From the NCBI GenBank assembly GCA_007126515.1, contig SLBD01000188.1, positions 1 through 35,787 of the forward strand: a DNA stretch of 35,787 bases. The letters are read 5' to 3'. A program made the translations under genes and the position numbers. Each line of letters starts with the position of its first letter. Positions within the stretch are counted from its first letter, which is position 1. The notes beneath the pieces were generated by a model that was given only the letters and a program-made list of their open reading frames with translations, made no database searches and had not been told where the DNA came from. This DNA comes from Kiritimatiellia bacterium (lineage in GTDB: Bacteria; Verrucomicrobiota; Kiritimatiellia; SLAD01). This document shows positions 1,095 to 33,079 of this stretch, in pieces.

Positions 1095-1201
1095 TTCCAC
1101 TCAATGGAAGAAAAAACGGCGGTTTTCCATTCAATGGAAACTTTTTAATGCATTTTTCCACTCAATGGAAATTTTTCGGTCCGTTTTTCCATTCAATGGA
1201 A
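1095..1201. repeat. Phased palindrome array 1: four copies of TTCCA[C/T]TCAATGGAA
   Basis: Copies at 1095-1109, 1125-1139, 1156-1170 and 1187-1201; start-to-start distances 30, 31, 31; variants alternate C,T,C,T. Confidence 0.95.
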
Positions 1202-1284: not shown

Positions 1285-2469
1285 ATGAAGAGAATGATTA
1301 TATTTTTATTTTTTGCTGCACTGGCTGTATCGGCCCAGGCAGGGTTTGAGGATGAGGTGATCTTCTCGCGCAGTCGGACGGAGTATGAAATGGTGACTCT
1401 GACCCGGCGGATTGGCGGTTTAAATCGACCGTGGGCGGCGGCGTTTCCGGGCGAGAACCAGTATTTGATTACAGAGCGAGCCGGACGGTTGCTGTTCATT
1501 GATGAAAATGGCCATCGCCATGAGGTATCCGGATTACCGGATGATCTGGTTGCGATTAACCAAGGCGGGTTGCTGGATATCGTGCTGCACCCGGAATTTG
1601 AAGAGAATGGCTGGATTTACATGACGTATTCCCAAGGGACCCGCGCAGCGACAGCCACGACCCTGATTCGGGCTCGCTTGGATGGCACGACGTTGGTGGA
1701 TGTGGAGCAGCTGTTTACGCAGGATCGAACTTCGTCGCCGGGGCGCCATTATGGGTCGCGTATCCTCTTCACGGATTCGAATATGCTGCTGATGACGATT
1801 GGGGATCGAGGCACTCATCCAGAGCGTGCTCAGGATCCCTTGGATCATGCCGGCACGGTGATCCGGCTGCGCGACGATGGATCGATTCCCGAGGACAATC
1901 CGTTTGTGGGGAATCCACGGTATCTGCCAGAAATCTTCTCGTATGGTCATCGGAATATTCAGGGAATTGCGATGCATCCCATCACGGGAGAGATTTGGGC
2001 GACCGACCATGGCGCGCGCGGCGGGGATCGATTGGACCGAATCGATGCGGGCCGCAACTACGGCTGGCCGGTTGCAACTCCGAGTCTTAATTACCGCGAT
2101 GGAACTCCGGTGTCGGATACCCGCGTCGGGTTTGGGTATGTTCCGCCTGTCTTTGAGATTCTGCCGACATTGGCTCCGTCGGGATTGGCGTTCGCGGATG
2201 CATCCACGTTTCCACGCTGGGAGGGAGATCTGTTGGCTGGCGGCTTGGCGAGTCGTCAATTGCAGCGCATGGTGCCGGCGTATGGTCCCCTTTCAAAATT
2301 TAAGGACGGGCAGCGTCGCATCACTATCGAAGGCCCATACTTAGCTCATTCCGAGATCCTGCTAATCAATCAAATCGGGCGAATTCGCGACGTCCGGACA
2401 GGGCCGGGCGGGAACGTTTATATCCTTACCGATGAGAGCAATGGCGGATTGTATCGATTGACGCCGTAG
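1285..2469 (+). CDS. PQQ-dependent sugar dehydrogenase family protein (glucose/sorbosone dehydrogenase-like, YliI type), exported
   Basis: Signal peptide MKRMIIFLFFAALAVSAQA; RBS GGAGGA; motifs GDRG, IFSYGHRNIQGIAMHP, WATDHGARGGDRLDRIDAGRNYGWP. Confidence 0.85.
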   Translation: MKRMIIFLFFAALAVSAQAGFEDEVIFSRSRTEYEMVTLTRRIGGLNRPWAAAFPGENQYLITERAGRLLFIDENGHRHEVSGLPDDLVAINQGGLLDIVLHPEFEENGWIYMTYSQGTRAATATTLIRARLDGTTLVDVEQLFTQDRTSSPGRHYGSRILFTDSNMLLMTIGDRGTHPERAQDPLDHAGTVIRLRDDGSIPEDNPFVGNPRYLPEIFSYGHRNIQGIAMHPITGEIWATDHGARGGDRLDRIDAGRNYGWPVATPSLNYRDGTPVSDTRVGFGYVPPVFEILPTLAPSGLAFADASTFPRWEGDLLAGGLASRQLQRMVPAYGPLSKFKDGQRRITIEGPYLAHSEILLINQIGRIRDVRTGPGGNVYILTDESNGGLYRLTP

Positions 2470-30470: not shown

Positions 30471-31809
30471 TCACTGAGGCCCCACCCACGCCTCAAGCAG
30501 CTCTTCCATCCGCGCTAGCCGCTGCTTCAATGCCTCGTTTTCCGCCTCCAGCGCAATCACCTTCGCGTTCAGACCCTGAATTGCCGCCAAGGCCACTCCG
30601 TCCGTATCCAACGTGTTAATCGTCACGTCATCACCCAAACCAAACGACGCATGGAAATCCTGCGCCACAGGTCCGATGTATCGACGCTGTCCGGGATCGG
30701 CCTTGTAGTTCCAAGCCGACAGCGGCAAGGCAGCGACCTGCGCCAAAATCTCGCCCGTGTCGATCGCCTCAAAGTTCTCCTTTACCTCGCGGTCAGACAG
30801 GATCGACCAAGCCGTCGCATTCGCTGCTAATTCAACTCCTAATGAATTCTTGTCATCCGTGATCAGGCGATACCCCCCCGATGCGCGAAACGTGACGGTA
30901 TTGGGCATGGGTGATGTCAGATCGGTCCCCGTCGCATCGGCCCATACAAACTGTCCTTCCAGTGCCGCCTTCGCTTGTCGGCCTGCTGCAAACGAATAAT
31001 TCCCCGCCGCAACATTTTGGAAGCCGCCCGGCACCGTGCTATAGGAACCGCCACTGATAGCGCCCGCTCGGTTTTCAGCACCTCCGCCCACAACCGAATT
31101 CGTGCCCATGGCAACATTCCTCTGCCCTCCCGCCACTCACGGTGGACTCGTTGCCGCTGGCTATATTTTGATCCCCAATGGCAATGGAATTCGTGCCACT
31201 CGCCACCGGCGGCGTGGCAAACGGGCCGCTTTGCGCGAAACCGCTGATCGCCATCGACGGCATCGTCGCCCAGTTCAACTTATTGCTGGTGATGCTGTTG
31301 TCGACGATATTGACACCAGTGATGGACTCGTACACCACGCCACCCGCCACAGCCGCGAAGGGAACTGACCCCAAAGGCTGGTCAGGCTCAAGTCGTGTGA
31401 AGTTCTCATTATCCTCACTAAACCAAATCCGTAGATACAGGATCGTTGGCAAAAAGACATACGAGGGCAACGGCACCATATTCGGCAGATCCGCATTGCC
31501 CAGCTCGACCATGAACAAGCCATTCTCAACGGCTAGTTCGACCGCACTTGTCGGCTTAATCACATCCACTTCCGACCCTATCGTATCGTTCCGCCAACGA
31601 GCCGCCGAGGCTTCCGGAGAAGACAGCAGCGCGAACTTGAAATAGCCGGTACCGCTGAACGGAGCCCCGTTGGCCGTCACCAACCCCTGATAACTGATCG
31701 TCGGCGGCACATCCTCAAAGCCCGGCGGCAGTGCGTGGCTATTCAGAACAACCCCCACGGCCAACAAAGCAATCCATGTCACACTCGCGAGTTTATAATG
31801 GCTCATCAT
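30471..31809 (-). pseudogene. Exported tail-fibre/YadA-head-like protein with C-terminal Peptidase_S74 chaperone domain, interrupted by a frameshift
   Basis: N-part (start 31806/31809, RBS GGAAAGGA): signal peptide, TISYQGLVTANGAPFSGTGYFKFALL, ends in hep_Hag-like repeat. C-part in another frame: GGQRNVAMGTNSVVGGGAENRAG...LSDREVKENFEAID...QRRYIGPVAQDFHASFGLG. Confidence 0.75.
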
Positions 31810-31858: not shown

Positions 31859-31997
31859 TTCCACTCAATGGAAGAATTTTTTGGTGTTTTTCCACTCAAT
31901 GGAAATTTTCCGTAGCTTTTTTCCATTCAATGGAAAAAAATCAGCCCGAGTTTCCACTCAATGGAAGTTTTCCGGGGCGATTTTCCATTCAATGGAA
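31859..31997. repeat. Phased palindrome array 2: five copies of TTCCA[C/T]TCAATGGAA
   Basis: Copies at 31859-31873, 31890-31904, 31921-31935, 31952-31966 and 31983-31997; every start-to-start distance is 31 bp; variants C,C,T,C,T. Confidence 0.95.
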
Positions 31998-32280: not shown

Positions 32281-32559
32281 ATGAGTAAATCCATACGTAT
32301 CAGTGACACTCTAATTGCGGAGGCCGAAAGAGTTGCTCGGGCGTTCCACCGCTCGCCGCCACAGCAAGTCGAGCATTGGGCACAATTGGGGCGAATCATG
32401 GAAACGGCCCTCTCCTGGAAGGCCCAGTCCAACGCGAAGGCCGCCAGCATGTATAGTCAGCTAGAAGATGCCTTGGCTTCCGTGGATACCGTTGCAGGGC
32501 TGAACAGGAGCCATAATGTCATTCGGCGTACCTCTGTGATGCCGTGCGGCTATGAGTGA
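32281..32559 (+). CDS. ParD-like antitoxin (PF11903-type)
   Basis: MSKSIRISDTLIAEAERVARAFHRSPPQQVEHWAQLGRIMETAL; overlaps downstream toxin by 8 nt. Confidence 0.8.
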   Translation: MSKSIRISDTLIAEAERVARAFHRSPPQQVEHWAQLGRIMETALSWKAQSNAKAASMYSQLEDALASVDTVAGLNRSHNVIRRTSVMPCGYE

Positions 32560-33079
32560 GCCGGACAAGCCAATTCTGGTCATGCTGGCTGGTCCGAACG
32601 GAGCTGGCAAGACGACGTTTTATGAAGCCCACCTCGCCCCTTTGGGATTGCCGTTTATCAACGCCGATATTCTGGTGCGCACGCTAGGACTTGCGCCGTA
32701 CGAGGCCGCTATCGAGGCGGAGCGCATTCGTGAGATCTATGTTGAAAAGCAGATCGGTTTTGTTTCTGAAACCGTCTTTTCTGATCCAGTTGCCTCCAAG
32801 CTCGCTTTTCTATGCCGAGCTGTTCAAGCAGGGTTTGATGTCCATCTGATTTTCATCCAGATTCGGGATGTTGAGTTGTCGATGGCGCGTGTGCGCGACC
32901 GGGTTGCGGCCGGTGGGCACGATGTTCCGGAAGATAAACTAAAGAGCCGTTTCGCCCGAACTCAAACGAACCTACGTAAAGCCTGCAAAGTTCTGCCACA
33001 TGTCTTGATTTACGACAACTCGTCCTATCAGGCACCCTTCCGCTTGAAGGCTGAATATCGCGAGGGAAAACGCATATAA
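32552..33079 (+). CDS. Zeta toxin family protein (P-loop kinase-like)
   Basis: MLAGPNGAGKTTFYEAHLAPLGLPFINADILV Walker A; FVSETVFSDP; RVRDRVAAGGHDVPEDKLKSRF. Confidence 0.85.
   Translation: MSEPDKPILVMLAGPNGAGKTTFYEAHLAPLGLPFINADILVRTLGLAPYEAAIEAERIREIYVEKQIGFVSETVFSDPVASKLAFLCRAVQAGFDVHLIFIQIRDVELSMARVRDRVAAGGHDVPEDKLKSRFARTQTNLRKACKVLPHVLIYDNSSYQAPFRLKAEYREGKRI

Follow-up and report, generated by a model that had tools for sequence, protein, structure and literature searches.

The question raised by this locus is what a row of short, evenly stepped repeats is doing in the gap between two divergently oriented genes of a Kiritimatiellia bacterium. The window (the whole stretch of DNA that we analysed, 35,787 nucleotides) holds two such rows. 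The focal one, array 2, is built from the 15-mer TTCCA[C/T]TCAATGGAA, a near-palindrome whose chance expectation in the window is 0.00 (100 dinucleotide shuffles; none occurred in the shuffled windows). The arrays, their sites and the genes beside them are:

1095..1201, + strand: array 1, four sites (1095, 1125, 1156, 1187), gaps 30, 31, 31, variants C, T, C, T
1285..2466, + strand: GSDH-family exported dehydrogenase gene (PF07995), 83 bp after array 1
30474..31136, - strand: C-terminal part of the YadA-head-like protein gene, in another frame (Peptidase_S74, PF13884)
31078..31809, - strand: N-terminal part of the same exported YadA-head-like protein gene (PF05658, E 9e-5, below the curated cut-off)
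31859..31997, + strand: array 2, five sites, gaps 31, 31, 31, 31, variants C, C, T, C, T
31859..31873, + strand: array 2 site 1, TTCCACTCAATGGAA
31890..31904, + strand: array 2 site 2, TTCCACTCAATGGAA
31921..31935, + strand: array 2 site 3, TTCCATTCAATGGAA
31952..31966, + strand: array 2 site 4, TTCCACTCAATGGAA
31983..31997, + strand: array 2 site 5, TTCCATTCAATGGAA
32263..32556, + strand: ParD-like antitoxin gene (PF11903), divergent neighbour of array 2
32552..33076, + strand: zeta-toxin-like / AAA_33 gene (PF06414, PF13671)

In line with the preliminary description, array 2 comprises five exact copies, starting at 31859, 31890, 31921, 31952 and 31983 with every gap 31 bp, and lies near the start of a minus-strand gene, whose ATG (31809 or 31806) is 50-53 bp away. 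Both arrays, as that description also stated, are on the + strand, open with the C variant followed by GAA and close with the T variant; the periodicity of array 1 is inexact, its first gap being 30 bp and the next two 31. A frame change near 31075-31136 divides the YadA-head/S74 gene next to array 2 and leaves its integrity uncertain (either a pseudogene or an assembly error), and across the divergent gap the ParD-like/zeta-toxin-like pair begins about 270-280 bp beyond the array.

The suggestion that the two arrays belong to a larger family with a shared binding factor fared well. The source assembly (2.47 Mb, 244 contigs) contains 122 exact sites, 66 on the + and 56 on the - strand, and the reversed motif, used as a control in the same genome, gave 0 sites. 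These sites form about 35 arrays (33 with several sites, 2-7 copies each, were catalogued), which supports a genome-wide family and makes a shared, putative binding factor probable. The spacers (~16 bp) have a loosely common composition, namely two A/C/G bases, an A/T run, a G/C-rich block and T's, and their identity is 6.9/16 within arrays versus 7.7/16 between arrays; being no more alike within than between, they indicate that the 31-bp step did not arise by recent duplication of a unit. We rejected a simple tandem repeat or VNTR on the same figures, the whole unit including the spacer not being repeated, and also a CRISPR array, given the 15-bp repeat (at least about 21 bp is needed), the composition-sharing ~16-bp spacers and the 2-7 copies at about 35 loci. 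The 60-bp array flanks have no conserved column past the motif edge except [G/T]T before and A after, and a 10.3-bp AT/GC wrapping pattern, sought within the unit, was not dominant. Our search of the open-access literature found no description of the exact motif, nor of such arrays in Kiritimatiellae/Verrucomicrobia.

The arrays had further been linked to genes for exported proteins, and this link was not upheld. Using gene calls and a signal-peptide heuristic from simple home-made code, we found signal-peptide-like products for 9 of 34 array-facing genes versus 33 of 142 others in the source genome (p=0.66), and for 28 of 139 versus 112 of 391 in relatives. Enrichment beside exported-protein genes was thus absent, the outcome that had earlier been set as refuting the link. 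The view that array polarity is not fixed relative to the genes did stand, the two orientations occurring 8:7 in the source genome and 31:28 in relatives. Neighbouring genes are mostly of housekeeping type (pheS, clpB, pnp, sdhA, ilvB, carB, leuA, thrC, rsmE), with no common function and no recurrent functional class except pheS; as recurrent partners beside arrays in three genomes, only pheS and an NTP-transferase gene were found. The 25 commonest Pfam families in 127 array-facing genes include no RNR family, tRNA genes are only occasional hidden neighbours, and one E. coli Lrp query had no match in the loci around arrays.

An array often occupies all of the space between its two flanking genes. 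In the source genome the gaps that contain arrays are tandem in 15 cases, divergent in 9 and convergent in 3; in genome G033, where 24 arrays are dispersed over large contigs (a feature common to chromosome-organising sites), 8 are tandem, 6 divergent and 4 convergent, and about 4 arrays are possibly intragenic. The relatives' sample has 33 divergent, 58 tandem and 3 convergent gaps, i.e., convergent gaps are avoided (3/94 vs about 20%, p about 1e-4), an avoidance not seen in the source genome or G033. No promoter or -10 element was found at a fixed offset from the arrays. Elsewhere, two arrays (L134:804-850 and 2003-2079) lie within one long, strongly coding ORF.

How far the family extends was assessed with a generic query, TTCCA-N5-TGGAA three times at 31 bp, in a collection of 85,488 species genomes. 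At least 115 stretches match; the labels among the matches listed are almost all Kiritimatiellae, Verrucomicrobia, Lentisphaerae, Spartobacteria or Pontiellaceae, with a few plain 'bacterium'. Within Kiritimatiellia, represented largely by MAGs, which are incomplete, 50 of the 289 genomes contain such triples, up to 138 in one genome, and 27 of the 114 genera have them; a control pattern gave zero in each of the 289. Genomes share the outer TTCCA/TGGAA and the spacing, whereas the inner five bases are genome-specific: the source genome has almost only CTCAA/TTCAA, the arrays at pheS or within the NTP-transferase gene of its congeners G004-G006 read ATC[G/A]T instead, and other families have AGCCT, CGCTA, CACAA and others. 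A phage origin was rejected, as only 3 stretches on 2 contigs (L290, L291, L292) were found among 2.9 million viral contigs of IMG/VR; these two contigs are possibly proviruses or host fragments.

Neighbouring sites keep to the helical repeat of DNA. Whole turns (about 2, 3, 4 or 6, at 10.5 bp per turn) account for 597 of 599 distances, which fall into classes of 20-22 bp (47), 29-32 bp (537), 41-43 bp (9) and 62-66 bp (6); outside the three-turn class, 61 of 62 are still whole turns. Two-turn (22-bp) gaps are terminal in 45 of 61 cases versus 27 expected (p=4e-6, significance being overstated in this sample, which includes related, non-independent genomes), resulting in layouts such as 22-31-31-31-31-22, a defined architecture with two-turn end gaps in some families (L139, L040, L051, L054 and others). 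The robust point of these data is that half-turn distances are absent among neighbouring exact sites up to 66 bp.

Two array positions are old and shared across families. Of 27 genomes, mostly picked for carrying arrays, 19 (from 8 families) have an array directly upstream of pheS, often at 7-50 nt from its start. The second position is within an NTP-transferase (HddC/GmhD-like) gene, which contains an in-frame array in 12 of the 17 genomes that could be resolved (6 families), always after ...NGD(S/T)LxPxL. Arrays at this same protein position in different families include L062:609-778, L096:1294-1453 and L111:3503-3579. When the NTP-transferase genes of G005 and G004 were compared, differences were found at 1 of 50 outer motif bases, 29 of 64 spacer bases and 165 of 445 flank bases (p about 1e-8). 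Since the array copies are read in different frames, selection at the protein level cannot explain this constancy; judged from the aligned genes, it is the motif DNA itself that is under purifying selection. A motif held fixed amid diverging coding DNA points to selected, putative binding sites of a self-associating protein. Other positions behave differently: in the dnaJ-rsmE gap, arrays are present in five family members and absent in two, and about ten other source-genome arrays are without a counterpart at the orthologous gene in relatives, indicating that most positions turn over fast. For the last pheS spacer of G000, 6-19% of background spacers match those of relatives equally well, so that spacer homology is only suggestive of a core changed in place, a step for which the evidence is position.

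The combination of phasing, DNA-level selection and core rewriting suggests that the arrays are rows of putative binding sites for one cooperative, self-associating DNA-binding protein, and their dispersal, lack of polarity and presence in any type of gap, even in a coding gene, make a chromosome-wide job the most likely one. We hold this reading, with its chromosome-wide job, to be rather probable. While the motif, its phasing, its genome-specific core and the selection on it are read from the DNA, we infer the protein, its cooperativity and its changing specificity. A unit of the protein, probably a dimer, would sit on each 15-bp near-palindrome, and adjacent units would touch one another because the sites, whole helical turns apart and normally three, lie on one face of the helix; a short cooperative nucleoprotein block would thereby be loaded on an array of 2-7 sites. 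Whenever the core was rewritten, the protein's recognition surface would have changed with it. Candidates for the chromosome-wide job are nucleoid architecture, segregation and anchoring of the occlusion type; individual genes, pheS for instance, may also be affected locally. The patchy spread (50 of 289 genomes) is odd for an essential chromosome factor and counts against a chromosome-wide role.

Known chromosomal sites offer a partial parallel. matS, the Noc and SlmA sites, parS and the F-plasmid sopC centromere are short palindromes, dispersed or arrayed, each served by one dedicated protein; the chromosomal ones (matS, Noc/SlmA, parS) are single sites and sopC is one 43-bp array. The arrays described here resemble them as short dispersed or arrayed palindromes and differ in being 31-bp phased at 25-40 loci, for which we know of no equivalent among them. 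A more specific proposal, which we put forward tentatively and at somewhat less than an even chance, is that this is a new chromosome-organising system of Kiritimatiellia: each chromosome would have 25-40 three-turn-phased arrays, ending in some families in special two-turn pairs, on which a putative protein assembles, and the sequence preference of this protein would have changed several times in the history of the class, all sites in the genome following.

The main rival is that the arrays are promoter operators, making up a large regulon under a global Lrp/AsnC- or NrdR-like regulator that acts cooperatively at two- or three-turn spacing. The Ss-LrpB site is a 15-bp palindrome, TTGCAAAATTTGCAA, and Lrp-family sites are palindromes whose centres lie two or three turns apart (PMC2995911, PMC4046817). 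The arrays share this spacing feature (palindromes, two or three turns, one face) and the 5+5+5 build (TTGCA-N5-TGCAA in Ss-LrpB, TTCCA-N5-TGGAA here), as well as having several sites per target, some of them intragenic (PMC2995911, PMC4046817); they differ from Lrp/AsnC clusters in their strict motif, their many dispersed arrays, uniform and with at most about 7 sites each, and their lineage-rewritten core. NrdR likewise binds a pair of palindromic boxes 15-16 bp apart, their centres separated by about three turns, in a helix-phase-dependent manner (PMC12051234), but its boxes are mostly pairs upstream of ribonucleotide reductase operons, whereas here up to 7 sites of a different motif accompany unrelated genes. 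The layout works like that of Lrp-family clusters and NrdR box pairs, a likeness from which membership in either does not follow. Operators would also suit the enrichment of divergent and avoidance of convergent gaps in relatives and the pheS array, which lies 7-50 nt before the start in most bearers. Against them stand the arrays in convergent gaps and in frame within genes, the random polarity, the lack of a promoter element at a fixed offset, the lack of a counterpart to most arrays at the orthologous gene in relatives and the absence of a recurrent functional class other than pheS. We therefore consider a promoter regulon unlikely, and a chromosome-wide role more likely.

It is more doubtful still that the arrays are selfish interspersed repeats of the REP, MITE or Rickettsia palindromic element type, which a transposase disperses and the genome tolerates both between genes and within them. 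Their dispersal over about 35 loci and rapid turnover between species would fit, as would the in-frame copies, since Rickettsia palindromic elements, too, are dispersed palindromic repeats sometimes found in frame inside ORFs (PMC10969869). Unlike REP/BIME, MITEs and the Rickettsia elements, however, the arrays have no conserved border in their flanks, by which, along with terminal repeats or target duplications, REP and MITE elements are recognised, and no conserved spacers; they keep two positions across families with a locally rewritten core, and their motif DNA is under purifying selection inside a gene. Least probable of all are RNA-level elements, i.e., transcribed palindromes forming hairpins that process or stabilise mRNA: RNA from either strand of the array does fold better than shuffled sequence (z -4.0 and -5.6), as any row of palindromes would, but orientation to the genes is random, the C/T and A/G variants disrupt base pairing in one of the two strands, exact 2/3/4/6-turn phasing is meaningless for RNA, and Rfam gave no match to the array.

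If the arrays are cooperative binding sites of a chromosome-wide protein, they expose a class-wide DNA-protein system, with its putative protein, in a class known mostly from MAGs. They would also provide a natural series in which more than 100 putative binding sites per genome follow a change of recognition sequence, allowing the protein to be found by covariation and factor-site co-evolution to be watched. The pheS and NTP-transferase arrays are ready test loci, the latter separating DNA-level from protein-level selection.

Several smaller observations concern individual arrays. The neighbour of L169 is a PALP-family (TrpB-like) gene. In L165:4006-4176, five sites of the array share one orientation and the first is inverted. 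A second dispersed repeat (TAGCTTATAGGCTATTATTTG...GTGGCC) adjoins several arrays (in the flanks of L152, L153, L154, L175 and L179), and a further repeat, GGCTCGACRGAGTCTCGCCCT, which follows the arrays L175 and L179, resembles a palindromic extragenic repeat.
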